Virus record (IMG/VR): IMGVR_UViG_3300044859_002374
Location: 1 to 64,000 of that record
Source of the DNA: a virus
Reading direction: 5' to 3' (one strand)
Length of the DNA stretch: 64,000 nucleotides
The translations under genes were made by a program, and so were the position numbers. The notes beneath the pieces are model-generated. The model did no database searches, had not been told where the DNA came from, and worked only from the letters and a program-made list of their open reading frames with translations. Shown here in pieces: positions 8,834-54,944 of the stretch (positions within the stretch are counted from its first letter, which is position 1; the number at the start of each line of letters is the position of its first letter).

Positions 8834-10443
8834 ATATACTAGATTCCCAAGAAATAATTAAAGAACTTGATTTATTGATCAGATCAAAAAGACCTATCAT
8901 TTATCTTGTCACCCAAGAAGAAAACAGAGTTGTTGATGCAATTGACGAATTATGTTCAAATGCAAGTCCTTCTTGGGATTTATTACAATGGGATATAGTA
9001 TCTGGCTTACACTCTTCATATCCTGAATTTCTACCTGTAAAACCAAACGAAAGAATTCTAGATCAAGATGAAATTCTTACTTGGTTCAAAGATCTTGTTG
9101 TACCAAAAAATAAATATGCAATTTTAGTGGTAAAAGATTTTAATAAATTTTTTGGTTCCAATAACTATAAGAATCAGATTGAATTAAGAATTATAAGGCA
9201 AATCAAGAATCTTTCTCAGCAATTTATTACTGAAAATAAAACTCTTGTTATCATTTCCAATTCATTAGAAATACCTTCAGAATTGGAAAAATTTCTTCCT
9301 GTTCTTGATTATCCATTACCTAGCAAATCTGAAATAAAAATAAAGATTGGTGATTTGCTAAAAAGAGCATCCCAAAGAAAAAATCTTGCAGATAAATTCA
9401 AGACTCAATACACTGAAGATGAATTAGATTCAATTGTTAATTCATTTCGTGGTCTTACACTATCTGAATGTGAACAAGTGTGTGCATATTGCATGATAAA
9501 ACATTCAGAACTTTCTAATGAGGCTATTTCCCAGCAAAAGAAAGATATTATCAGGAAATCAGGTTTGCTAGATTGGATTGACCCAGAGACAAATCTAGAT
9601 AAAATTGGTGGTCTTGATGGCTTGAAAACTTGGCTTTACAAGAGACAAAATGCTTTTTCACAAGATGCAGTGGATTATGGGCTTCCTTCAAGTCCAAAAG
9701 GTATTTTACTTGTAGGTATTCAGGGTGCTGGAAAATCTTTATTTGCTAAAGCTGTATCTTCTTATTGGAATTTTCCATTGCTAAGATTAGATATGGGAAA
9801 AGTATTTTCAGGTCTGGTAGGTTCATCTGAAAATAATATGAGGCAGGTATTTAGAGTAGCAGAATCAGTTGCTCCCTGCATATTATGGTGTGATGAAATC
9901 GACAAAGGAATGTCAGGCACCAGATCTTCTGGATCTACTGATGGTGGAACAACTTCAAGAGTTTTGGGTTCTTGGCTCACTTGGATGCAAGAAAGAACAG
10001 CGCCAGTTTTTGTCATTGCAACAGCTAATGATGTTTCAAACCTACCGCCAGAATTATTGAGAAAAGGCAGATTTGATGAAATATTTTTTGTTGATCTTCC
10101 AAATCTCACAGAAAGAAAAAAAATATTTGAAATCCACATTGAAAAACGTGGAAGAAATATTGACAAATTTAACTTATCTACACTGGCAAAAGAATCTCAA
10201 TTTTATACTGGTGCTGAAATTGAATCCTCTATAGAATCTGCATTGTATGAAGCATTTAGCGACAACAAAAGAGAAATCACAACAAATGATATTCTTTTAT
10301 CTCTGGAGAATACAGTTCCCATTTCCAAGCTCATGAAAGAAGATATTGAAGCTTTAAGAAAATGGGCTTCAGATCGTGCTAGAAATGCTTCTTGTAATGA
10401 TGTAAAATACAACATGCCAGATTTTAAAGAGGAAGATTTATAA
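8830..10443 (+). CDS. Ycf46-like AAA+ ATPase
   Basis: The protein has 537 residues. The N-terminal part ('LDLLIRSKRPIIYLVTQEENRVVDAI') matches the opening of Ycf46-type proteins of plastids, cyanobacteria and other bacteria. The AAA+ domain runs from about 285: Walker A GIQGAGKS, Walker B 'ILWCDEID', a sensor 'IATAND' and an arginine finger 'RKGRFDEIFFVDLP', as in the FtsH/Cdc48 class. There is no HExxH protease domain, so it is not FtsH. The start overlaps the previous stop by 4 bases. In this operon a remodelling role at the replication fork is possible; the cellular function of Ycf46 is not well defined. Confidence 0.85.
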   Translation: MNILDSQEIIKELDLLIRSKRPIIYLVTQEENRVVDAIDELCSNASPSWDLLQWDIVSGLHSSYPEFLPVKPNERILDQDEILTWFKDLVVPKNKYAILVVKDFNKFFGSNNYKNQIELRIIRQIKNLSQQFITENKTLVIISNSLEIPSELEKFLPVLDYPLPSKSEIKIKIGDLLKRASQRKNLADKFKTQYTEDELDSIVNSFRGLTLSECEQVCAYCMIKHSELSNEAISQQKKDIIRKSGLLDWIDPETNLDKIGGLDGLKTWLYKRQNAFSQDAVDYGLPSSPKGILLVGIQGAGKSLFAKAVSSYWNFPLLRLDMGKVFSGLVGSSENNMRQVFRVAESVAPCILWCDEIDKGMSGTRSSGSTDGGTTSRVLGSWLTWMQERTAPVFVIATANDVSNLPPELLRKGRFDEIFFVDLPNLTERKKIFEIHIEKRGRNIDKFNLSTLAKESQFYTGAEIESSIESALYEAFSDNKREITTNDILLSLENTVPISKLMKEDIEALRKWASDRARNASCNDVKYNMPDFKEEDL

Positions 10444-11249
10444 TGAGCGACAGTGATATCTTTGAAGATTTAATAGGATTGAAAATTACTGTTGATGATA
10501 TGAAGCATCATGCTAAGCTAGCAAGAATGAAAGAAGGCAAAGGCTGCTTTGTGTGTGACTACAATGGTTACACAACAAACTATCAAGGCAAAGCTGTCAT
10601 GTGCACTTGTACCAAGGAAAAGTTTTTTCTTGAGTTGTTTCAAAGAGCAAATGTGCCTTCACTTTTTTATAAAAAAACTTCAGATGATTGGAACACTCGC
10701 ACTGACTCGTTGGGTAATGATCTTGGTCCTCAACAAAAAATAAGTGAGATGGTTTATTCATTGTTGAAGTTTTATGATAAAAATTTATATAAAATCTGCA
10801 ATGGGGTCAATATAAAGATCACTCACACAGGTAACATCAGGAACAATCTTCATTCTATGATGTTTGAGGGAAGTTATGGCTCTGGCAAGACATTTATCGC
10901 TAGTGTTTTGGTTCAATCTGCAATAAGGCAAGGTCTCACTGCTAAATATTATGATTGGGCTGATATGATTCAAACATTGTCTGATTTTGACAAAAAATCA
11001 GAAGCAGATACTTTACTAGAAGAATTTAAGCATTTAGATTTTATTGCTATTGATGGGGTGGAGATATACCAATATATGCCTCCTCAAATAATTCCACAGC
11101 TGGATAGAGTTTCCAAAGCTAGATTGAATTCTGGCAAACCATCCATTATAATGACATTTGGAAATATACTCAATTATAATGGTGGTAGTGGTTGGAATTC
11201 ATTAATTAAGAATTGCCTTCACATACGATTACCACAGACAGTAAGGTAA
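10443..11249 (+). CDS. DnaC/IstB-type helicase loader ATPase
   Basis: The protein has 268 residues, with a TAATG overlap with the AAA+ gene and a GAGGA ribosome site. It has an N-terminal four-cysteine cluster (CFVCDYNG ... CTC), as in zinc-binding DnaC/DnaI-type loaders, then an AAA+ core with Walker A GSYGSGKT near residue 143 and Walker B-like 'FIAIDG'. The end ('IIPQLDRVSKARLNSGKPSIIMTFGN') matches DnaC/DnaI. The family loads the DnaB helicase onto single-stranded DNA. It lies directly upstream of the helicase gene. An unusual point is Gly in place of Glu after the Walker B Asp. Confidence 0.8.
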   Translation: MSDSDIFEDLIGLKITVDDMKHHAKLARMKEGKGCFVCDYNGYTTNYQGKAVMCTCTKEKFFLELFQRANVPSLFYKKTSDDWNTRTDSLGNDLGPQQKISEMVYSLLKFYDKNLYKICNGVNIKITHTGNIRNNLHSMMFEGSYGSGKTFIASVLVQSAIRQGLTAKYYDWADMIQTLSDFDKKSEADTLLEEFKHLDFIAIDGVEIYQYMPPQIIPQLDRVSKARLNSGKPSIIMTFGNILNYNGGSGWNSLIKNCLHIRLPQTVR

Positions 11250-11252
11250 AAG

Positions 11253-12809
11253 ATGAGTCAAGAACACTATGATTTAGAAGTTTTAGCACTTGCCCATATC
11301 ACTAAAAGTGCTAAAAGTATGGACAAATTGCTGTCTAAAAATATTACTAAAGATCACTTCAATTATATTGCTGAAAGCGAAACAGTTTCATACACCAAAG
11401 GCATTTTTGACTTAATCCTTAAGTATTATGAATTGTCAGGTGGATCTTTATTTACATCATACGTATTGGGTCAAAAACTTAATGACCCTAAGGTGAAAGA
11501 AAGATCAAAAGCAAAAGTACTCACTCTTTGGGAAGAAATTGAAAATACAGAAGTTAATGAAAATGATTTTCATGAAGTTCTTTCTCAGATAAAAGAGCGA
11601 AGGTGCTACAACATCCTCACTGACATGTTGGATGAAAGTCATGCTTCTTTCACTCAACAGGACATCAAATCAACAGTTAATGTCATTAGAGACAATCTAG
11701 ACAAAATTCAAGAAGAGCTTTCTGAATTTGGTGCTGATAGACATTCATTTGATGTCACTCAATCTGGTGATTTTTTCAGAAATGAATATGATAAAAGAAT
11801 AAATCATCCTGAATTATTTAAGGGTATTGAATGTGGTGTTAGCAACATCGATACTAAGACATTTGGATGGTTACCAGGTCAGATTGTAGTTTTCTTAGCT
11901 CCTTCTTCTGGTGGAAAATCTGTAATGCTTTTGAATTCTGCTATTCATGCTCACAGAAAAAATAAAAAGAATGTTCTTTACATGTCTTTTGAAATGAACT
12001 CTTGGTTATGTCTATTAAGGCATATATCTCTGTCATTTGAAATTCCATATTCTCAACTCAAAGATAATAATTTGTCTCCAGATGAATTAAAGTCTATTGT
12101 TGATGGGTTGAATGATTCTAAATCCGGAGCTTATTTTGAATACGATGTAAACATGGAAGATCCTACTCCTGAGTATATTGATCAAAAAATCAGAGAATTG
12201 ATTGCTACTAAAGGCAAACCAGATATGTTAGTTGTTGACTACATAGGTAACATGACTGTTAGGAATGCTGTCAATGGTGCAAAAGACTGGGAAAATCAAT
12301 CTAAAGCAATTACAGAATTATTCAAAATGGCTAAAAGATACAACATTCCAATTATCACAGCACAACAGATAAACAGAGAAACTATCAGAGATTCTAGAAA
12401 GTCCAAAGAAGCTAATAAATTCATGTCTTATGATCAAGCTGCTGCTTCTGGTGGACAAAACTTAATGCACCTTTGCACATATGCTATTGCAATGGAACCT
12501 AATCGTGAAAAGGGATATTGTGTATTTCATCCTGTTAAAATGCGCGATGCTTGGTTCAATCCTTTTCCAGTAAGAATGAATCCAGAATATAACAAAGTTG
12601 AAGAAATGACACCTGAAGAGCAAGAGACTATAATGGGTTATCATACTGCAGCTAGTGGAAATGTCACTGTAAAATCAACTTCTGAAGTTACTGGTGGCAA
12701 AACTCCATTGCATCCCAAGAAATTAGATGAAGTGGAAGAAATTGGATTTGAGAGAGTCCAAGATGATGATGAAGAAGAAATCAACCTTGCAGATTGGGTT
12801 CTTTCATAA
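11253..12809 (+). CDS. dnaB: Replicative DNA helicase, DnaB family
   Basis: The protein has 518 residues. It has an N-terminal helical domain (about 1-150) and a RecA-fold SF4 motor: Walker A APSSGGKS near residue 220, 'LYMSFEMN' (H1a Glu), Walker B 'MLVVDYIGNM' and 'IITAQQINRE', typical of DnaB. It unwinds the replication fork as a ring hexamer and recruits primase. The C-terminal 60 residues are acidic and likely disordered. It follows the loader by 3 bases and its TAA overlaps the ATG of the primase zinc protein (TAATG), so loader, helicase and primase part are translationally coupled. Confidence 0.92.
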   Translation: MSQEHYDLEVLALAHITKSAKSMDKLLSKNITKDHFNYIAESETVSYTKGIFDLILKYYELSGGSLFTSYVLGQKLNDPKVKERSKAKVLTLWEEIENTEVNENDFHEVLSQIKERRCYNILTDMLDESHASFTQQDIKSTVNVIRDNLDKIQEELSEFGADRHSFDVTQSGDFFRNEYDKRINHPELFKGIECGVSNIDTKTFGWLPGQIVVFLAPSSGGKSVMLLNSAIHAHRKNKKNVLYMSFEMNSWLCLLRHISLSFEIPYSQLKDNNLSPDELKSIVDGLNDSKSGAYFEYDVNMEDPTPEYIDQKIRELIATKGKPDMLVVDYIGNMTVRNAVNGAKDWENQSKAITELFKMAKRYNIPIITAQQINRETIRDSRKSKEANKFMSYDQAAASGGQNLMHLCTYAIAMEPNREKGYCVFHPVKMRDAWFNPFPVRMNPEYNKVEEMTPEEQETIMGYHTAASGNVTVKSTSEVTGGKTPLHPKKLDEVEEIGFERVQDDDEEEINLADWVLS

Positions 12810-13435
12810 TGGAAAAAATCACTAGGCAATACATAGATACATTAATTAGCACAGTTTCTATTGCTAACTATATGGAAGACGAATACAATTCTGATTTCGT
12901 TGATTCCAAGATGTCTAATTGGGCAAATACTTGTTGCCCAATGCCAAATCATGATGATTCTAATCCTTCTTTTGGAGTGAACACAGAATCAAATCGATAT
13001 AATTGTTTTGGCTGTGGTGCTACTGGGGATATTATCAAACTAGTTCAAAATGTTGAAGGCTTGAATTTTATTGAAGCAATCCAGAAAATTTCTTCATATT
13101 CTGGTATTGAAGTTGAAACTACCAATTTAGATTTCAAATATTTGGTAAATGAATTTAAGTCTACTATTAATGATTATCTCAATAAAGAAAATGAAAATAA
13201 ATTTCCTGGTGGTTTGTCCGAAACAAACTTCCTTATTGCATTTAGTGACAGATCTAAAAAGTTCTTAAGATTAGTAAATATAAATGATGAAGATTTCAAT
13301 TGGGTAGAATCTGTTTATAAAGAAATTGAACTTCTCACTGAAAAGCAAGACTATAAAAACTTGACCAAAGTGTGGAAAGATTTTGGTAAACAATCAAAAG
13401 AAAAGATGCTAAAGTACAATGAATCACAATCTTAA
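12809..13435 (+). CDS. Primase zinc-binding domain protein (split DnaG, N part)
   Basis: The protein has 208 residues from the ATG at 12809 that overlaps the helicase stop. Residues about 15-100 are a CHC2 zinc domain of DnaG: Cys43 ('TCCPMPNH'), His48, 'PSF', then 'YNCFGCGATGD' (Cys66, Cys69). The rest is helical and has no RNA-polymerase core or Toprim motif; those are in the separate gene at 22099. In DnaG the zinc domain reads the priming site on the template. The helical C-terminal half may hold the helicase or the catalytic partner (inferred). Its end overlaps the next small gene by 17 bases. Confidence 0.85.
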   Translation: MEKITRQYIDTLISTVSIANYMEDEYNSDFVDSKMSNWANTCCPMPNHDDSNPSFGVNTESNRYNCFGCGATGDIIKLVQNVEGLNFIEAIQKISSYSGIEVETTNLDFKYLVNEFKSTINDYLNKENENKFPGGLSETNFLIAFSDRSKKFLRLVNINDEDFNWVESVYKEIELLTEKQDYKNLTKVWKDFGKQSKEKMLKYNESQS

Positions 13436-22098: not shown

Positions 22099-22854
22099 AT
22101 GGAAGATCGCAAGGCATATTATAATCAATTTACTCGTAATTTATCTGATAGTAACATTGCCCAAGAATATTATGCTACTAGAAATTTATCCAAAAGAATA
22201 GTAGATGATAATTTAGTGGGATTTTGTCCATCATATTCTAGATATCATTTTCCATTATTGAGGGGAAGATTAATAGTTCCCATTTGTGATGTTGATGGAA
22301 AAATTATTGCTCTAGCTGGTCGCCAAATTCCAAAAGCAGCAGAAATGACTGTTCAATCATTTTGGGATTCATATAGTCATGAACCGGCAAAATGTCAAGA
22401 CAGAATTAATAAATGGAATAAAGGCAAATGGATAAATGAGCCTTATCAAAAAACAAGAAATTTATTTTTTCTAAATAATGCTAAAAAAGAAGCAATTATA
22501 AGAAACTATATCATCTTAGTAGAGGGATACTTTGATGTGTATAGTTTTTACGATAATGGGTATCAGAATACATGTGCATTGTGTGGCACTTCTATATCAG
22601 ATTATCAAATTGCTTTAGCAGCAAGATATTGCGATAATATTATAGTGATAATGGATTCTGATGATGCTGGTAAAATTGCATCAGAAAAAATACTATCTAA
22701 AATTAAAGAATACTCTTTAAAAGCTCATAGGGTTTTATTGCCTAAAGGTATGGACCCTGATGATTTTGCTAGCAAGTATGATATTTCTTTTTTAGATGAG
22801 TCTATAAAGGAAATGATATCTTCTGGTCAACAGGACTTATTGGTAAAAATATAA
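22099..22854 (+). CDS. Primase catalytic core (RNA polymerase plus Toprim; split DnaG)
   Basis: The protein has 251 residues. The N part is the DnaG core ('YYATRNLSKRIVDDNLVGF', 'LRGRLIVPICDVDGKIIALAGRQI', 'WINEPYQKTRNLFFLNNAKK'). The Toprim part has 'IILVEGYFDVYSF' (catalytic Glu), 'CGTSIS' and the metal-binding 'IMDSDDAG'. There is no zinc domain (see 12809) and no C-terminal helicase-binding domain. It should make RNA primers, with the zinc protein supplied in trans from 9 kb upstream. Its start is leaderless behind a good promoter and its stop overlaps the RecJ start, so the two form a small operon. Confidence 0.88.
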   Translation: MEDRKAYYNQFTRNLSDSNIAQEYYATRNLSKRIVDDNLVGFCPSYSRYHFPLLRGRLIVPICDVDGKIIALAGRQIPKAAEMTVQSFWDSYSHEPAKCQDRINKWNKGKWINEPYQKTRNLFFLNNAKKEAIIRNYIILVEGYFDVYSFYDNGYQNTCALCGTSISDYQIALAARYCDNIIVIMDSDDAGKIASEKILSKIKEYSLKAHRVLLPKGMDPDDFASKYDISFLDESIKEMISSGQQDLLVKI

Positions 22855-24635
22855 TGGAAACAATTTGGAAACTCAAAAAAGCTGATAATGGTCTTGTAGA
22901 CGAGTTAGCATTTGATCTTGAAATGCCAGCAACAATTGCCAAAGTTTTAGCAGTAAGAGGAATCACAAATCTTGAAGATGCTAATGATTTTCTTAAAACA
23001 GAAATCAAACATTTGCACAACCCGTCATTGTTGCCAGATTTCAAACCTGTTGTAGACAGAATTAATTATGCTATTGACAATCAGGAAAAGATTTTTGTAT
23101 GGGGAGATTACGATGTTGATGGAATCACTTCCACTGCTATTGTTGTCACAGCACTTAAAAAGATGGGAGCCAATCTTGAATATAAAGTTCCCCACAGAAT
23201 GGAAGATGGATATGATATCAAAGTTCATTCTGTAGATGAAGCCATTTCTCGTGAAGCTAAATTGCTCATGTCTGTGGACTGTGGAATTGTTGCATTTGAA
23301 ACAGCTGAATATGCTAAAAAATGTGGTTTAGATTTGATAGTCACAGATCACCACCATCCTTCTGATGATGGAAAAATACCAAATTGTATTGGGGTTGTGA
23401 ATCCTAACAGAGATGACCCTAACTATCCTGGAGAACATTTCAAGTCTCATAAAACTGAAGATTTTAAGAGATATCCTTTTGATTATCTTGCAGGGTGTGG
23501 TATTGCATTTAAATTAATGCTCGGATTAGCTAAAACTCGCAAGATGGATATTATGAGTTTGATAGATGATCTTATTGAATTTGCTGCTTTGGGTACAGTA
23601 GCTGACGTTGCTCCAATGTTAGATGAAAATCGCATAATTGTAGACTATGGTTGTAAAATTTTAAGCAGAAGTACAAAACCTGGAATACAAGAACTTTTAC
23701 GAGTTGCTGGAGTCAAGGAAGTCACCACAACAAGTATTGGATTTCAAATAGGTCCAAGAATTAATGCTATTGGAAGATTGGCTGATTCTGGAACAGCTTT
23801 ATCTTTGTTATTGGCTGAAGATGATTTTATTGCAAAGTCTTTAGCAAATACATTGAATAATGCAAACACTAAAAGACAAAAACAACAAGAAGAAAATATT
23901 GCACAAGCTGTAGCATACGTTGAAAAAAACTTTGATTTAGAAAAGGAACATATACTAATACTTGGTGCAGATGATTGGCATCCAGGATTGATTGGTTTGA
24001 TTGCTGGGAAAATAGCAGAAGTTTATAATAAACCTACTTTAGTGTGTTCTTTTAAAACTGATGGATATGCAAAAGGTTCTTGTCGTTCCACTCGAAACTT
24101 TAACATCTTGAATGCATTGAAATCTGAAAAAGCATGGGCATTGTTTAAGAAAAGAGCAGATGGTTCAACTGTTTGTGGTGGACATGCTTTTGCAGCTGGA
24201 TTTGAACTTGCTATTAATAATATTCCAGCAATGAGAGATGCATTGAATGAATATGCATCAAATGTTATTGGTGATCCAACAAATATAAAAGAGATTGAAG
24301 TAGATTCAAAACTCATGTTTGGTGATCTAAATTATAAAACATACAATCACTTATTAAGATTGGCTCCTTTCGGTGCTGAAAATCCAAATCCCTTATTTTT
24401 CACCAAGGGTATTAAAATATCAGAATTAAAACCATTATCACAAGGCAAGCATTTAAAAATTAAATTTACAGATGGAAAATCTTGGATATCTGCAAATGCT
24501 TGGCGCAGAGGTTATTTAATTGATAGTTTTAAGGTTGATGATGTAGTAGATCTTGTTTACACTCTTGAAATTGACACATTTACTGGTAAAAATAGCTTAG
24601 TGTTGATTATAGAAGACATCAAGCATTCAAAGTAG
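22854..24635 (+). CDS. recJ: RecJ-type single-strand DNA exonuclease
   Basis: The protein has 593 residues. DHH-family motifs are in order: 'WGDYDVDGITST' (about 83), 'SVDCGI', 'VTDHHHP' (DHH, about 163), 'GTVADVAPM' and the DHHA1 motif 'CGGHAFAAGFEL' (about 443), then an OB-like C-terminal domain ('APFGAENPNPLF'). The length fits bacterial RecJ. It degrades 5' single-stranded DNA in recombination and mismatch repair. It overlaps the primase core gene by one base. The promoter of the following sigma-like gene begins directly at its end. Confidence 0.93.
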   Translation: METIWKLKKADNGLVDELAFDLEMPATIAKVLAVRGITNLEDANDFLKTEIKHLHNPSLLPDFKPVVDRINYAIDNQEKIFVWGDYDVDGITSTAIVVTALKKMGANLEYKVPHRMEDGYDIKVHSVDEAISREAKLLMSVDCGIVAFETAEYAKKCGLDLIVTDHHHPSDDGKIPNCIGVVNPNRDDPNYPGEHFKSHKTEDFKRYPFDYLAGCGIAFKLMLGLAKTRKMDIMSLIDDLIEFAALGTVADVAPMLDENRIIVDYGCKILSRSTKPGIQELLRVAGVKEVTTTSIGFQIGPRINAIGRLADSGTALSLLLAEDDFIAKSLANTLNNANTKRQKQQEENIAQAVAYVEKNFDLEKEHILILGADDWHPGLIGLIAGKIAEVYNKPTLVCSFKTDGYAKGSCRSTRNFNILNALKSEKAWALFKKRADGSTVCGGHAFAAGFELAINNIPAMRDALNEYASNVIGDPTNIKEIEVDSKLMFGDLNYKTYNHLLRLAPFGAENPNPLFFTKGIKISELKPLSQGKHLKIKFTDGKSWISANAWRRGYLIDSFKVDDVVDLVYTLEIDTFTGKNSLVLIIEDIKHSK

Positions 24636-24664
24636 TTTACAAATCAACCCTCCAGCACTATAAT
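24636..24664 (+). promoter_or_regulatory. Strong sigma70-type promoter for the zinc-finger sigma-like gene
   Basis: TTTACA (24636-24641), 17 bases, TATAAT (24659-24664): a near-consensus promoter starting right after the RecJ stop. The start point would be near 24671, inside the hairpin described in the next entry, leaving a leader of about 20 bases with a GGGGAGGG ribosome site. Confidence 0.75.
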
Positions 24665-24690
24665 ATTTTTATTATCGGGGAGGGTTCTTT
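24646..24690 (+). promoter_or_regulatory. Hairpin that would hide the ribosome site in read-through mRNA
   Basis: AACCCTCC (24646-24653) and GGAGGGTT (24679-24686) are perfect inverted repeats, with inner ATAAT/ATTAT pairing. The right arm is the ribosome-binding site of the GTG at 24692. The left arm lies upstream of the predicted transcription start, so it exists only in mRNA reading through from RecJ. The following TTCTTTT means the same hairpin might also end RecJ transcription. Confidence 0.6.
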
Positions 24691-24691
24691 T

Positions 24692-25651
24692 GTGTTAAAT
24701 GATATAAAGCACCTAAAAGTTCAAGAAAATTTAGAGCAAGCAATTTTACGTTATCAAAAATCATTAGTTTCTGGAAATAAGATTCTAATAGACAAACACT
24801 ATAAAGATATTTGTAAACTTTATCCACCTATGCTACATATGCAAGAGTGGTGGAATCAATATCATTATTTATATGATTCTCAAGAAGATTTTGCTCAAGA
24901 CTATATTAGAATTTTCTGCAATGTTTTGTCAAACTGGAAACCAAGAGGAGCAAGAAAAAAGTCTCGCTATGATGGTTCTGGTGAATTTAAGAATTATTTT
25001 ATTGGCGCATTACAACATAATTATATCAATTTAGTTAAAGCTGACAATGCTGGCAAAAGAAATCCATCACAAAAATGTCCAATTTGTGAAAAATGGGTAA
25101 ATCCACTTTCCACACACATCTTAAATCATCATAGTGAAATTCTATGGCTTCATTTAGAAAATATTAATATTCATTTAGATAATATTTCTCATTGTCCATT
25201 TTGCAAGTCTCACAAAATGCCAAGAACATTTGAATGTCTTCCAGATTGTGATAATAAAACAGAAAATGGTTGCGAAGTTTGTCAAAAAATTATTACTCTT
25301 TTAGCATTAAAGAAACATTTTTTATCAAAACACTCTTCTATGTTATTTCAAAAATTCAATGAACTCTATCCAAATTACCAAACAATTTCACCTCGTGCAA
25401 TGAGTGTATACATGTCTGAAGAAGATGACGATGAAAATTGTTATTATGATCATGTAGAAGACAAAAATAAAATCCAAAATCTAATGCGTTACAGCATGAA
25501 CGAAATTGAATTTAAAATTATCAACTCAGCATTAAGCGGTACAAAGGATATTAAGTACGATCCTAAAGTTTACAATTGTACATTAACTGAATTTCAAGAA
25601 GCACTTGAAAATGTAAAGAATAAGATGGCTTTAGTTGGGCTAGAAGGATAA
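24692..25651 (+). CDS. Sigma-factor-like protein with three zinc-finger modules inserted
   Basis: The protein has 319 residues, GTG start with GGGGAGGG 7 bases upstream. Residues about 35-122 resemble sigma70 region 2 ('SQEDFAQDYIRIFCNVLSNWKP', then 'GSGEFKNYFIGALQHNYINLVK'). Three metal-binding modules follow: C129-C132-H142-H146 (classical C2H2 spacing), C168-C171-C182-C186 and C194-C197-H209-H214. After an acidic linker the last 55 residues ('MNEIEFKIINSALSGTKDIKY') could be a degenerate region 4. If right, it would bind host RNA polymerase and use the fingers to choose promoters. The zinc modules are directly visible; the sigma assignment is by pattern only. It has its own promoter and a regulated ribosome site. 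Confidence 0.6.
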   Translation: MLNDIKHLKVQENLEQAILRYQKSLVSGNKILIDKHYKDICKLYPPMLHMQEWWNQYHYLYDSQEDFAQDYIRIFCNVLSNWKPRGARKKSRYDGSGEFKNYFIGALQHNYINLVKADNAGKRNPSQKCPICEKWVNPLSTHILNHHSEILWLHLENINIHLDNISHCPFCKSHKMPRTFECLPDCDNKTENGCEVCQKIITLLALKKHFLSKHSSMLFQKFNELYPNYQTISPRAMSVYMSEEDDDENCYYDHVEDKNKIQNLMRYSMNEIEFKIINSALSGTKDIKYDPKVYNCTLTEFQEALENVKNKMALVGLEG

Positions 25652-25655
25652 AAAA

Positions 25656-26039
25656 ATGGATATAATTGAAGAACCAGTAAACAAAATTGCAAACAATGAA
25701 AAGAAACCAAAAATTACAGATCCTAGGATTCTCAAAGCACGAGGTGGAGATCCTAATGATCCTGATGATTCCAGAAGACCAACTGATCCTATAGGTTTAT
25801 CAAGAAGCATTTTGCATGTTTTAAAAGAACATGAGTATGTAAGAGTTTTGTCTGTGGGACCAACTGCTCTCTCTTCAGTCATGTCAGCATTTAGATTAGC
25901 GTCAAGAGAAGTAGAATCGTTAACAAATGGCTCTGTTCTTATTTGCAGACAATCGGAATATAGTGCAGAAATTGCGGGGAAAAAGGCAAAGGGTATATCT
26001 ACCAGAATCTTCGCAATTGACATAAAATTTGCATTGTAA
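25656..26039 (+). CDS. SpoVS-like (Alba superfamily) protein
   Basis: The protein has 127 residues, with an AAGGA ribosome site. After a 45-residue charged and proline-rich N-terminus, the rest matches the SpoVS pattern: 'VRVLSVGPTALSSVMSAFRLASREVE', then 'ISTRIFAIDIKF'. SpoVS belongs to the Alba nucleic-acid-binding superfamily and is known from sporulation control in Bacillus, and from many non-sporulating bacteria. Here it sits 4 bases after the sigma-like gene and overlaps the deaminase start by one base. Binding of phage or host nucleic acid is plausible. The assignment is by motif recognition. Confidence 0.6.
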   Translation: MDIIEEPVNKIANNEKKPKITDPRILKARGGDPNDPDDSRRPTDPIGLSRSILHVLKEHEYVRVLSVGPTALSSVMSAFRLASREVESLTNGSVLICRQSEYSAEIAGKKAKGISTRIFAIDIKFAL

Positions 26040-33275: not shown

Positions 33276-33947
33276 ATGGCAACCGAAGACCCAAGAATAG
33301 TAGACATCGTTAGAAAAGCTAAAAGAGGAGAAAGTAAATCTTTTAATTACCTCTTGAAAATGGTTGAGCCTGATCTTAAAAAAATCTGCAACCATTACTT
33401 TATAGTAGGTGCTGATAGAGAAGACGTAATGCAAGAATTGCGGTTGGGAGTTTACAAAGCTGTTAATTCCTATGATCCAACCAAAGATACAACTTTTAAA
33501 AACTTTTGTGTCAATCTAGTCTGTAAACGTCATTTAGCAACAGCAATCGCAAGTGCTAAAAGAATGAAAAATTCAGTGTTGAATGATTCTATTTCTTTAG
33601 ATGCACCTATTATTTTAGGTGACGATGGAAATCTCCAAACTTTGGCTGATTTTATTCCTGAAAAGAAAAATCCATATGATGAATCTCCTGAGTGCGATTT
33701 AGTTCTTGATATTATTGGAAGAGAAGAATATGATTTAACTTCCAAGAAACTAATTGATAAACTAACTCCTTTAGAAGCTGAAATTTTCAATGAATATGGA
33801 ATGAATTCATCTTACAAAGAAATTTCAAATTCATTAAATGTTCCTCCCAAATGTGTTGATAATGCTCTTACTAGAATTCGTAAAAAAGCTAATGAAGTGT
33901 ACACTCAATACAAAAAGGATGAGAACGATTCACTGAACAAAAAATAA
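33276..33947 (+). CDS. Sigma-70 family factor, SigH-like
   Basis: The protein has 223 residues. Region 2 is clear and close to the SigH/Spo0H pattern: 'AKRGESKSFNYLLKMVEPDLKKICNHYFIVGADREDVMQELRLGVYKAVNSYDP', then 'TFKNFCVNLVCKRHLATAIASAKRMKN' and 'SISLDAP'. Region 4 is the helix-turn-helix at about 160-210 ('LTPLEAEIFNEYGMNSSYKEISNSLNV', 'KCVDNALTRIRKK'). It would redirect host RNA polymerase to phage promoters, probably of middle or late genes. It lies 37 bases after dnaX and upstream of a promoter that serves the purA-like operon. Confidence 0.85.
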   Translation: MATEDPRIVDIVRKAKRGESKSFNYLLKMVEPDLKKICNHYFIVGADREDVMQELRLGVYKAVNSYDPTKDTTFKNFCVNLVCKRHLATAIASAKRMKNSVLNDSISLDAPIILGDDGNLQTLADFIPEKKNPYDESPECDLVLDIIGREEYDLTSKKLIDKLTPLEAEIFNEYGMNSSYKEISNSLNVPPKCVDNALTRIRKKANEVYTQYKKDENDSLNKK

Positions 33948-33985: not shown

Positions 33986-33991
33986 GTGCGT

Positions 33992-34987
33992 ATGGAAACT
34001 TCAATTGTTGATGTAGTTATCGGTATGCAGTATGGGGATGAAGGCAAAGGAAAAATAGCCAATCAAATGGCTTTATCTGGTGAATATGACTACGTTATCC
34101 GTTTCAATGGAGGCGGAAATGCGGGTCATACAATTTACCTCAATGGAGAGAAAATTGTTACGCATCTTGTTCCTTGTGGTATTCTGCATGGTATTCCTAG
34201 TGTCATCGGTAATGGTTGTGTTATCAATACGCAAAAATTATTTGACGAACTTGGGTATCTTAAAGGATTTGGGTTTGACACATCAATCCTTAAAATAGCA
34301 GAAAACGCACATATAATTACCCAAGAACACATTGACGAAGATTCCAAAGACACAAAAATTGGAACAACTCGCACTGGAAACGGACCTTGTTACAGAGACA
34401 AGTATGCCCGTACTGGAATTCGTGCCAAAGATGTTCCTGAATTAGAACCATATCTTGTTGATATGCACAGTTTGATTTATTCTTCCCCAAAGAAATTTTT
34501 AGCTGAAGGAGCTCAAGGTTATTGGCTTGATGTTGACTTTGGCGATTATCCTTATGTCACATCGTCAAATACAGGAGTAGGAGCAGTATTAAATAATGGT
34601 TTCAATTTTAAGCAAGTTCGGAATGTTGTCGGGGTTATCAAATGTTATTCTACCTATGTTGGAGCTAAAGGATACCAAAAACACGACGAGCGATTTGAAA
34701 AACTGCGTGAGGTTGGTCAAGAATATGGAGCCACTACTGGTAGACCAAGACAAATAGATTGGCTAAATGTTGATGAAGTAAATACTGCTTGCCAAATGAA
34801 TGGAATCACTAAATTAATTGTAAACAAAATGGATGTTTTAGCTCAGATTGAAAATGGCTGGGACTGGTATCAAGATGGTAAATTACATTTTGTTGATGAT
34901 GAAGGTTCATTTATGCTTTGTCTTATGAATCAGATTACGAAATATAATCCAGGTATTGAAATTGAATTCCAGGGGCAGTTACATTGA
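33992..34987 (+). CDS. Adenylosuccinate synthetase family protein (PurA or PurZ0-like)
   Basis: The protein has 331 residues from the ATG at 33992; an in-frame GTG lies 6 bases upstream. Motifs are 'GMQYGDEGKGK' (P-loop with Asp16), 'NAGHT' (His46), 'GTTRTGNGPCYRDKYARTGIR', 'EGAQGYWLDVDFGDYPYVTSSNT', 'GATTGRPRQIDWLN' (aspartate loop) and 'NKMD' (278-281, typical of GTP binding). The short length matches archaeal PurA and phage PurZ rather than bacterial PurA (about 430). Canonical PurZ, which makes the precursor of 2-aminoadenine, is reported to lack the P-loop Asp; here it is kept, so the product may be adenylosuccinate, or succino-dGMP if it is of the GTP-using PurZ0 type. It lies in an operon with clamp and clamp-loader genes. 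Confidence 0.88.
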   Translation: METSIVDVVIGMQYGDEGKGKIANQMALSGEYDYVIRFNGGGNAGHTIYLNGEKIVTHLVPCGILHGIPSVIGNGCVINTQKLFDELGYLKGFGFDTSILKIAENAHIITQEHIDEDSKDTKIGTTRTGNGPCYRDKYARTGIRAKDVPELEPYLVDMHSLIYSSPKKFLAEGAQGYWLDVDFGDYPYVTSSNTGVGAVLNNGFNFKQVRNVVGVIKCYSTYVGAKGYQKHDERFEKLREVGQEYGATTGRPRQIDWLNVDEVNTACQMNGITKLIVNKMDVLAQIENGWDWYQDGKLHFVDDEGSFMLCLMNQITKYNPGIEIEFQGQLH

Positions 34988-36098: not shown

Positions 36099-37103
36099 AT
36101 GAGCGTAGTATTATCTGAGAGTTCTATTTTTATTGGTTCAAAGCCAATGGCATTACAACAGTTGTCTAGCAGTCATCCTGGATATACAATTGTAAGTGTC
36201 TTCAATTTAGAATCTCAAATAAAGAATTACTCTAAGTTTTTCGATTCAGACAAACTATTTTTAGTAGATAATCCAAGCAATGATCAAATAAAAATCATAG
36301 GACAACTGAACAACAACCAATACCATTTGTTTTTCGATGATGAAAGTTTTGATGGTAGAAATAGTTTTATTTCAAAAATAAAAAAATCTGGAAAAATATT
36401 TGATTATTCTTTTCCGATGTTTGGCGATGTTCAATCTCTCAAAAGATGTTGCTACAAAGAAGTAAAAAGTTTAGATATAAAAATAGATCAGCCATGTTAT
36501 GAATGGATAATAAATAATTGTCCAACATACAGAATAAAATCTAAAACTGCTGGCAATAAGAAAGAGAAAATTGTTTACGATCTTGATTTATTATTTCAAG
36601 AACTTAGAAAGCATGCATCTGTTAAGAATGAAGTAAAACTTGAAGACATTGAAAATTCTCTTTTTGACAACAACACTGATATTTTTGAATTTATTGATCA
36701 CTTGATTAATAAAAATGAAGATGTGTACGATACATGCAACAATCTATGCAGCGCAATTGGCGAACAAGGTTTGCTATTAATTTTGCTTTCACAGCTATAT
36801 TTTTTATTAGTAGTTTCAGACTGTAAAGAAAAAAATATTTATGATGCTAATAAAGTTGCAGAGATTTTAGAATGTAAAGATTTATTAGGCAAATATTTGG
36901 GCGAAAATTGGGTCCCTAGTGAGTTTATAATCAAAACTCAGAATCCAATCCGAATAAAGATTCAGATGGGTAAAACAACACCTTCTGTTGCTAAAATAGC
37001 ATACATGATTGAGCAAGTAGTATATACAATTAAGGATTTGAGAAATAGTGGCTCTAAAAATCATTCATTATTCTTGATGATTAATAAAATCCTTAGTGTA
37101 TAA
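36099..37103 (+). CDS. Clamp loader delta subunit-like (HolA-like)
   Basis: The protein has 334 residues and starts 2 bases after the clamp gene. It has no Walker A, as expected for delta. The order fits HolA: an N-terminal domain with 'KLFLVDNPSNDQIKIIG', a middle part with 'YDLDLLFQELRKHASVKNEVKLEDIENSL ... IFEFIDHLINKN' (the typical 'dl..l..EL.KL' and 'ifdlldail' segments), and a helical C-terminus with 'GEQGLLLILLSQLYFLLVVSD'. It would bind and open the beta clamp. Sequence similarity is weak; context next to the clamp is the main support. Confidence 0.6.
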   Translation: MSVVLSESSIFIGSKPMALQQLSSSHPGYTIVSVFNLESQIKNYSKFFDSDKLFLVDNPSNDQIKIIGQLNNNQYHLFFDDESFDGRNSFISKIKKSGKIFDYSFPMFGDVQSLKRCCYKEVKSLDIKIDQPCYEWIINNCPTYRIKSKTAGNKKEKIVYDLDLLFQELRKHASVKNEVKLEDIENSLFDNNTDIFEFIDHLINKNEDVYDTCNNLCSAIGEQGLLLILLSQLYFLLVVSDCKEKNIYDANKVAEILECKDLLGKYLGENWVPSEFIIKTQNPIRIKIQMGKTTPSVAKIAYMIEQVVYTIKDLRNSGSKNHSLFLMINKILSV

Positions 37104-37110
37104 AATTTTT

Positions 37111-37677
37111 GTGTATGAAGATCGCTACGAATATATAAATGAACTTATTTCAAAAGTAAAAGACAATGATGGCTCTGCTTTAGGAGAATTATATGATTTC
37201 TACAAGCCATTATTTATTTGTGCAATACAAAGATGTATTCAAAAAGAATTGAAATTGTCACCATATCGAGAAGATATGCTTCAAGAATCTTTATTAGTTC
37301 TTAAAAAAATAGTTGATCAGTACAATCCAAATCTTACTTATTTCTCATATTTTTTATCAACAAGAATAGATATCAACTTATATAGATCTTGTGTCGATAA
37401 ATATTTAGATCATGCTGACTATGAAAGCGATGTAGTTGTTGAAGAACATTCCACTGATCCATTCAACAGGATTGAAACTGTTATTTCACTACATTCTGCA
37501 ATCAATAAGTTAAATGAAAAACAAAAAGAAGCAATTGAGCTTTATTTTTTTGAAGGTTTAGATCAAGAAGAAGCATCGTTAAAGCTAAATATTTCCCAAA
37601 GTTCTTTCTCTAAAAGATTGCAGAGAGCCTTGGGAAATATCAAAGTTATCTTGGGAGAAGATTTTTTATCTTTTTGA
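37111..37677 (+). CDS. Small sigma-70 family factor (ECF-like)
   Basis: About 188 residues from the GTG at 37111, which stands 6 bases after TATAAA (37099-37104), so a leaderless start is likely; GTG 37096 is an alternative inside the previous gene. Region 2 is 'NDGSALGELYDFYKPLFICAIQRC', 'YREDMLQESLLVLKKIVDQYNP', 'YFSYFLSTRIDINLYRS'. Region 4 is 'LNEKQKEAIELYFFEGLDQEEASLKLNISQSSFSKRLQRAL', a typical helix-turn-helix. It is a second clear phage sigma factor. Its end overlaps the convergent leftward gene by about 12 bases. Confidence 0.8.
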   Translation: MYEDRYEYINELISKVKDNDGSALGELYDFYKPLFICAIQRCIQKELKLSPYREDMLQESLLVLKKIVDQYNPNLTYFSYFLSTRIDINLYRSCVDKYLDHADYESDVVVEEHSTDPFNRIETVISLHSAINKLNEKQKEAIELYFFEGLDQEEASLKLNISQSSFSKRLQRALGNIKVILGEDFLSF

Positions 37678-52643: not shown

Positions 52644-54944
52644 ATGGCAAATAGACTTTCATTGGCAGCTGCTATCAAATCATCAGCAAAATCAGTAATT
52701 GGTGAAACAACAATAAGTGATGTTACTGAAAAAAGAAATCATGCCACTAGCAGAGTTTCTCAAGGTCCAGGTCCTAATGTAAGGCAAGCATCTGTAAATT
52801 CAGTAACCACTTCTCCTAACTTTTATTCACCGTTCTTAACTCCTTCATCTTTTCAGATTCCAAATGCTCGACGTGAAGTATATCTTTGGGCAAACTGGTG
52901 GAAAAATAATGAACCTAAAGTTGCTGCTGGAATAAATTTTTATGCTACTTATCCATTTTCAGGATGGAAACTTGAGTGTTCTTCCACTTATGTAAAAGAC
53001 TATTTTGAAAAATTAATTGAAGTTTTAAATTTCCAAAAATGGCTCCCGGAGATTTCCAAAGTCTATTATTTATTGGGTGATGCATTCGTATTAATGTCAA
53101 TTGATTGCCCTCATTGTTTTGGATCAAACTGGGACAATGAAAAAGGCGAAGAATGTCAACATGACGGAGCCACTTGGAAATCATGTTCTATCCTAAATCC
53201 TGACAGTGTTTTAAAATCTCCAGGGATGATTGATCAACATGGATCATATTCTTACAGACCATCTGCAGAAGAAGTAAGAATTGTCACAGAACGTAGCCCA
53301 AAAGAAGTATATGAAAATATCCCTGATGGTGTAAAGAGATTGATACAAAAGGGTGAACCAATCAAATTAAACCCAATATCAATTCATCATTTTAAATATG
53401 GCTCTAATCCTTGGGAAGATTATGGCACATCTATTGTAAGACCATTGTTTCAAACATTAACTTACAAAGATAAACTTAGACAGGCTCAATATATAATTGC
53501 TGAAAGATTAATCATTCCTGTTAAGGTTGTCAAAATAGGCTCTGATACTCGTCCTGCATCTCAAGAAGATATTGATAGCGTTCAAGATGAATTGTCATCT
53601 TTGGCAAATGACCCTAACCTTACACTTGTTACTCACCATAACTTTGATTTAGAATGGTATGGAGCTAGTGGAAAAATTTATGATATCTCCAATCAATTTG
53701 AATTAATCGAAAATGAACTTCTAGATGGAATGATGCTTAGTAAAGTGTTATTAACTGGAGAAGGTCCTGCATACTCAGCTGGTCAAGTTGGTCTTCTTGC
53801 AATGGAGCAAAGAATTGAAACTTGGAGACATGAAGTTGCTAACTGGATAGAACAAAAAATATTTAAGCCAGTTTCTCAGTGGAATGGATTTGTAGTTGAA
53901 GGCGAAAGAGGACAAGACGAAATCATTTATCCTAAAATCAAATTCAATTCTTTGGAATTAAGAGATGAAACTAATAAACTTCAAACACTTGTAACAGCCA
54001 ACCAAAATGGAGTAGTTTCAAATGTTTCATTAATTGAAGCATTCGGTTTAGATGTCGATCAAGAAATTGAAAGATTGAGATTTGAACAAGGTGCAACATT
54101 CATGAAGGATCCAAATTATGGTGTTCCTGAATTCAGCATGAACATTCAATCAGGTCCAGTTTCAGGTCAAGGTTTTGGAGCACAGCAAGCTCCTGATATG
54201 TCAGGAATGGGCGCACCAGGATTAGCGCCACCACTTGCTAATTCAAGAGATGAAAACTATAGATTAGCATCTTCGATGATTAATGAAATTGTTGATGAAA
54301 AAATGCAAATTCATTTTGATGGAACAACTAAACGTTTAGCTAGCAAAAGATATAAATCTGCTGCGCATGAAGGGTTTATCAAGTCTTTAGTTCCTGTAAA
54401 TGGCAGAGGCTACTTGGGAAGACTACCTGATGAATATGATGGGTTGTATGGAAATATGTATACGCCTTTCTTTGGCGGAGACACTTCTAGCCCGTTAAAT
54501 CATGAAGCTAAAATTGAACTTAATAGATTTTCTGTTGATGAAGATGAAAACATTAGAACTGCTGCTAAAAAGAAAATGCAGACAAACAATCCACAGTTGT
54601 TTACATCATTAGAGAAAAAACTTTATGGAATGTTGATGTCAATCAATATGCCATATCCATTGTATGCACAATATTCAGCTGGAAACACACAAGATTTTCA
54701 ACTTGATGCTGCAATCCCAGCTTTGAGAATAGGTGTTGAAGCAGATGGTGAAATTTGGCACAATAACCCAGAAAAAATAGCAAGAGATAAAAGAAGAGAC
54801 ACCGACTTGGCATCTCATGGTTGGATTATTGTCAGATTTACAGATAAAGAATTAAATGATCATCCACAAGATTGTATAAATGTTATTGTAAATGCTATAA
54901 AGAAAAGATCAAATTTTCAACCTAATGGGCAAATTGTTTTATAA
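52644..54944 (+). CDS. Portal protein with C-terminal nuclease-like domain
   Basis: The protein has 766 residues. Residues about 60-510 read as a portal ('LWANWWKNNEPKVAAGINFYATYPFSGWKLE', 'NPWEDYGTSIVRPLFQTLTYKDKLRQAQYIIAERLIIPVKVVK', 'LLDGMMLSKVLLTGEGPAYS'). A possible zinc site is at Cys155, Cys158, Cys171, His173. After a linker, residues about 655-760 look like a Vsr/DUF559-type PD-(D/E)XK nuclease: 'QLDAAIPALRIGVEADGEIWH' (Asp688, Glu699, Asp701, His706), 'RDKRRDTDLASHGWIIVRF'. Portals form the DNA channel of the head. A nuclease fused there is unusual; it might trim packaged DNA or act on host DNA. The reading frame is continuous across both parts. Confidence 0.85.
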   Translation: MANRLSLAAAIKSSAKSVIGETTISDVTEKRNHATSRVSQGPGPNVRQASVNSVTTSPNFYSPFLTPSSFQIPNARREVYLWANWWKNNEPKVAAGINFYATYPFSGWKLECSSTYVKDYFEKLIEVLNFQKWLPEISKVYYLLGDAFVLMSIDCPHCFGSNWDNEKGEECQHDGATWKSCSILNPDSVLKSPGMIDQHGSYSYRPSAEEVRIVTERSPKEVYENIPDGVKRLIQKGEPIKLNPISIHHFKYGSNPWEDYGTSIVRPLFQTLTYKDKLRQAQYIIAERLIIPVKVVKIGSDTRPASQEDIDSVQDELSSLANDPNLTLVTHHNFDLEWYGASGKIYDISNQFELIENELLDGMMLSKVLLTGEGPAYSAGQVGLLAMEQRIETWRHEVANWIEQKIFKPVSQWNGFVVEGERGQDEIIYPKIKFNSLELRDETNKLQTLVTANQNGVVSNVSLIEAFGLDVDQEIERLRFEQGATFMKDPNYGVPEFSMNIQSGPVSGQGFGAQQAPDMSGMGAPGLAPPLANSRDENYRLASSMINEIVDEKMQIHFDGTTKRLASKRYKSAAHEGFIKSLVPVNGRGYLGRLPDEYDGLYGNMYTPFFGGDTSSPLNHEAKIELNRFSVDEDENIRTAAKKKMQTNNPQLFTSLEKKLYGMLMSINMPYPLYAQYSAGNTQDFQLDAAIPALRIGVEADGEIWHNNPEKIARDKRRDTDLASHGWIIVRFTDKELNDHPQDCINVIVNAIKKRSNFQPNGQIVL

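Follow-up and report, generated by a model that had tools for sequence, protein, structure and literature searches.

What kind of protein is encoded between a recJ-like gene and the ribonucleotide reductase genes of a group of very large phages, in an ORF whose product has three putative zinc modules between ends that resemble conserved regions of sigma factors? The window analyzed here comprises 64,000 nt, positions 1–64,000 of IMG/VR record IMGVR_UViG_3300044859_002374, which is 74,443 bases long in full. The reading that we favor, at a probability of roughly 57%, is that the product is a jumbo-phage factor of the sigma-70 type that has diverged strongly, with a three-site zinc block lodged between a region-2-like and a region-4-like domain.

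Gene and Distribution

The ORF at positions 24,692–25,651 (+ strand) is a real gene of 319 codons with a GTG start, as evidenced by its homologs and their dN/dS ratios; a Shine-Dalgarno-like sequence, GGGGAGGG (24,677–24,684, +), can be read directly 7 nt 5′ of the GTG. We found homologs in 27 IMG/VR contigs, of which the largest measures 378,848 bases. A Kapaibacterium MAG contains another, on a 5 kb contig resembling a phage fragment. The dN/dS ratio of the gene is approximately 0.03–0.07 (0.035–0.065 across six pairs), indicating strong purifying selection on the protein. The gene is carried by very large bacterial viruses (jumbo phages) that form one family. Tblastn retrieved no homolog from 50,697 phage records, and no such protein was detectable by HMM in gut-phage relatives of the neighboring genes. 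Records of the same lineage lacking the gene are mostly short pieces, and the two longest end before its expected position.

Genomic Context and Promoter

Gene order is fixed in the contigs examined: recJ, the sigma-like zinc gene, a gene for a product of 119–127 aa, and the ribonucleotide reductase genes. In the window, the upstream neighbor encodes a RecJ-like exonuclease (22,854–24,635, +; phrog_2484, E 4e-99), and the downstream partner gene (25,656–26,039, +; 127 aa), which also adjoins the gene in relatives, lies 4 bp past its stop codon. The partner product has no family match, although it contains a near-invariant stretch, RGGD.N..D...RPTDP.GLSRSI; a SpoVS-like identity was considered for it and found no support in family searches. 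The surroundings consist chiefly of genes for replication and nucleotide metabolism, which counts against a sigma factor. Among the wider gene complement of the window, the primase is split, with a CHC2 zinc ribbon and a Toprim part at 12,794–13,435 and 22,099–22,854, some 9 kb apart, and positions 33,986–34,987 encode a 333-aa adenylosuccinate synthetase. This enzyme reaches 121 bits against the PurZ model, whose cut-off is 300, and a higher score against PurA; a connection with modified adenine in the DNA of the phage is conceivable.

A sigma70-type promoter, TTTACA-17-TATAAT (24,636–24,664, +; 11 of 12 consensus matches), lies between the recJ stop codon and the sigma-like zinc gene. A promoter of this type precedes the gene in the window and in most relatives, with the same arrangement in contigs L026, L027, L037 and L039 and similar boxes in L034–L036 and others, so that the gene itself is probably transcribed by a host housekeeping-type holoenzyme. 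No convincing class of promoter motif emerged from 24 upstream regions. Separately, the leader of the window gene (24,646–24,691) contains AACCCTCC ... GGAGGGTT followed by CTTTT, which spans the -10 box and the ribosome site; this candidate hairpin could affect expression of the gene, and it is absent from the other relatives displayed, except for the near-identical L021.

The location of the gene bears on an alternative that we consider unlikely, namely that the product is a helical, zinc-finger protein unrelated to sigma factors, binding nucleic acids in replication, repair or nucleotide metabolism, and that its likeness to sigma factors would arise from convergent amphipathic helices. Its placement between recJ and the ribonucleotide reductase genes would suit such a role, while possession of its own promoter, separate from that of recJ, speaks against it.

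The phages already encode ordinary sigma factors. The window has a SigH-like one (33,276–33,947, +), with Pfam Sigma70_r2 and Sigma70_r4_2 matches over cut-off and SigH as the top NCBIfam models, and a second one (37,096–37,677, +; Pfam Sigma70_r4_2 E 2e-12, TIGR02937 over cut-off); larger relatives contain between two and four region-2 matches. Six phage records showed no RNA polymerase beta subunit and, within the reach of that search, the phage supplies no polymerase. This absence and the conserved promoter of the sigma-like zinc gene favor a sigma factor. For group 2 of a jumbo phage survey, which is devoid of its own polymerase, it has been proposed that phage sigmas recruit the host enzyme (PMC7824862).

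Three Putative Internal Zinc Modules

The three CxxC-based metal modules of the original prediction are all present, with ligands conserved in the 18 homologs aligned. Module 1 (25,073–25,135, +) is C129-x2-C132-x9-H142-x4-H147 and module 3 (25,271–25,333, +) is C194-x2-C197-x11-H209-x4-H214, both invariant; module 2 (25,193–25,252, +) is C168-x2-C171-x10-C182 with a fourth ligand of variable position. Eleven ligands (C129, C132, H142 and H147; C168, C171 and C182; C194, C197, H209 and H214) are thus invariant among homologs with identities down to 51%. Every homolog aligned has a candidate for the fourth ligand of module 2, which is C186 in most, C184 in L104, H184 in L223, and a later Cys in L018 and L039; such a shifting ligand fits a metal site. 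The first finger had been read as C129-C132-H142-H146, and its first three ligands hold; the fourth has to be reassigned, since relatives have H, C, S or D at position 146 and all of them keep H147. In the full-length AlphaFold model this finger adopts a beta-beta-alpha arrangement, with strands at 127–128 and 135–136 and a helix at 139–146. From these patterns, the three modules are predicted to bind zinc. They are all internal, and C296 is the sole conserved Cys near the C-terminus, so that the protein has no C-terminal cysteine-rich domain.

The ligand spacing of finger 1, C-x2-C-x9-H-x4-H, is also that of intact MucR fingers, among the prokaryotic C2H2 fingers of Ros/MucR. Outside the ligand positions, fingers 1 and 3 resembled Ros/MucR no more than did shuffles with fixed C and H positions (z 1.2 and 0.8), which scored equally well in 9 of 80 cases for finger 1 and 15 of 80 for finger 3, and the protein has no Pfam match to Ros/MucR; homology to these proteins is not supported beyond the spacing. 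A match to p300 TAZ2 (E 0.026) was likewise dismissed as a coincidence of cysteine spacing.

Similarity to Phage Sigma Factors

Comparisons by hhalign were done with the 18-row family alignment, from which the zinc block (residues 127–229) was excised, against an alignment of phage sigma factors. This produced one ordered alignment of 162 columns with a score of 31.3 and P 0.00056, although P values here are optimistic because we decided on both the excision and the sigma sets used in the light of earlier results. The match includes a region-2-like N-terminal domain (residues 28–126; 24,773–25,069, +), with helices at 30–43, 50–60, 64–81 and 99–123, and the region-4-like C-terminal helices (residues 260–316; 25,469–25,639, +), which align with the SigH-like phage sigmas at z 5.2 over shuffles. 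In the profile alignment, an acidic linker (residues 230–258; 25,379–25,465, +), modeled by AlphaFold with low confidence, takes the position of region 3.2 of sigma factors. The N-terminal half also retains FKN(Y/F) and, at residues 65–70, an acidic ED-x-x-(D/E) patch, both of them present in the SigH-like phage sigma.

The score was not reproduced by any control. In a first set of 40 column shuffles the mean was 14.2 and the maximum 18.2, and none of 300 further column shuffles (maximum 25.3) or 100 local shuffles (maximum 23.4) attained 31.3; exchanging the two halves lowered the score to 24.3 and reversing the sequence lowered it to 13.4, while the zinc block by itself gave no comparable match. 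Accepted sigma pairs, scoring 63–128, stand far above the family. Two sigma HMMs, searched against some 570 real proteins of the same set of loci, placed the family immediately under the true sigmas; for one of the HMMs an unrelated protein was intermixed near the top. Eight of the 18 excised sequences outscored all 3,600 residue shuffles, the 18 being mutually related and hence not independent. Ranked against 35 gene families of these loci, the sigma alignments came at or close to the top, and one non-sigma family matched across 22 columns only. By profile statistics, the sigma-like patterning of residues ca. 28–126 and 260–316 is more than chance, and a match that is ordered across both halves, with sigma templates above nearly all other phage families, argues against a convergent, non-sigma origin. 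Single-template hhalign comparisons with narrower sigma sets (p1, p2 and grp2) gave no significant match and, given that the tests were also built stepwise, we consider the sigma profile evidence as good, not decisive.

Curated models add no match. Sigma models from Pfam, PHROGs and NCBIfam did not detect the window protein even at E up to 1–10, Pfam sigma models did not match 13 family members, and no family in the three collections covers the protein, which suits a non-sigma protein; sequence matches in these databases and in PDB were weak zinc-finger or chance matches and were discarded. Conversely, a better match to a nuclease or recombination family, which the original prediction had named as an outcome that would refute it, did not appear in family searches, and the absence of nuclease or recombinase matches counts against a non-sigma protein of replication or repair.

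The region-4-like part has no Pfam HTH match. Together with the ordinary sigmas already present in the genome, this weakness would accommodate a sigma-derived regulator that has lost promoter selection and binds RNA polymerase or a host sigma in order to inhibit, appropriate or modulate it, using the zinc block as its protein- or nucleic-acid-binding part. The sequence evidence is the same for this regulator as for a true sigma, but we judge it quite unlikely, since the protein has retained both sigma-like ends and their order, which a pure inhibitor does not need.

Predicted Structure

AlphaFold modeled residues 1–126 with a pLDDT of 87.9 and a pTM of 0.80 from a shallow alignment of 18 similar sequences; a conserved PP interrupts helix 1 of this domain. 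Confidence was low over the region-4-like C-terminal part. The original prediction had proposed structure comparison as a check for a sigma2 fold at the N-terminus and had named the lack of this fold as a refutation, and here the result went against it: Foldseek, run without a positive control, returned no sigma structure among the 50 PDB matches listed for the N-terminal model, and no convincing sigma2 structure with the whole-chain model. The missing match weighs against a canonical sigma2 domain, as far as the model can be trusted, and favors a non-sigma protein. The predicted likeness to sigma70 region 2 and to the sigma C-terminus therefore holds at the level of profiles, in order and in both halves, but extends neither to curated models nor to a sigma2 fold in PDB, and for this reason we do not assign the protein to the sigma-70 family. 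We describe it as probably a remote relative of sigma-70 proteins that has a zinc block in its interior and whose function we infer from sequence.

Proposed Mode of Action and Comparison with Known Factors

If the protein is such a sigma-70-type factor, its region-2-like (28–126) and region-4-like (260–316) domains would flank an insert of about 100 residues holding zinc at three sites. Both ends would dock on the host core RNA polymerase as those of other sigmas do, and the zinc block, occupying the usual place of region 3 and the linker, may supply an extra contact with DNA, e.g., the spacer or an extended -10, or with a protein. The polymerase would thereby be directed to a class of phage genes, the protein acting alongside the two ordinary phage sigmas on the host enzyme. 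RNA polymerase binding, promoter recognition and the zinc-block contacts are all features that we infer. As hypothetical roles, the original prediction had put forward a new means of promoter selection or a coupling of RNA polymerase to a further nucleic acid. The stretch between sigma2 and sigma4 normally crosses the active channel of the polymerase. More tentatively, and in our view somewhat doubtful, the family may constitute a sigma class with a tandem array of three zinc modules in place of the sigma2-sigma4 linker. By itself reading DNA or binding a partner, this array would give jumbo phages a third holoenzyme type, with a new class of promoters. If true, the segment of a sigma factor that crosses the active channel could accommodate a large zinc module. 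Such an arrangement would come as a surprise to specialists in transcription and, in a lineage of jumbo phages that depend on the host polymerase, would open the way to promoters of an unknown class.

The closest relatives by profile are the SigH-like sigmas of the same genomes, which share with the family the order of region-2-like and region-4-like helices and give its best profile match; they exceed the Pfam sigma cut-offs and lack a zinc block, whereas the sigma-like zinc family matches no curated sigma model. Among ECF sigmas, CorE/CorE2 (ECF238) and OrbS (ECF243) have on-board metal-binding cysteines, and CorE has an additional CXC motif within the sigma2-sigma4 linker (PMC8999054, PMC9023288). 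The main cysteine clusters of CorE and OrbS are, however, short C-terminal extensions, while here the two halves are separated by some 100 residues that comprise three four-ligand sites. The cysteine modules by which such sigma factors respond to metals (PMC8999054, PMC9023288) are precedents for a self-sensing sigma, switched on or off by a zinc block serving as metal or redox sensor; we regard this as highly improbable, as three complete four-ligand sites, two of them CCHH, would appear to be structural, not labile. Likewise, a zinc-finger domain is fused to the sigma factor in ECF48, ECF52 and ECF53 (e.g., SCO4117) (PMC8999054), but this is a C-terminal fusion of anti-sigma type with transmembrane helices, and the zinc block described here is internal. 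Phage T4 gp55 and SPO1 gp28/gp34 are described in PMC9429907 as phage-encoded factors controlling middle or late phage transcription. We found no sequence match between these factors and the sigma-like zinc protein in phage records. They are not known to have zinc blocks. A sigma factor of this layout was not described in the open papers searched, whose coverage is incomplete.

Two further coding sequences deserve mention. A 766-aa ORF of the window (52,644–54,944) fuses a Mu-type portal domain (226–465) with a C-terminal DUF559/MTES_1575 Vsr-like nuclease domain (682–752), and the related 379 kb phage contig L223 encodes translation initiation factor IF-3 at positions 10,394–10,969 (TIGR00168, E 4e-42).
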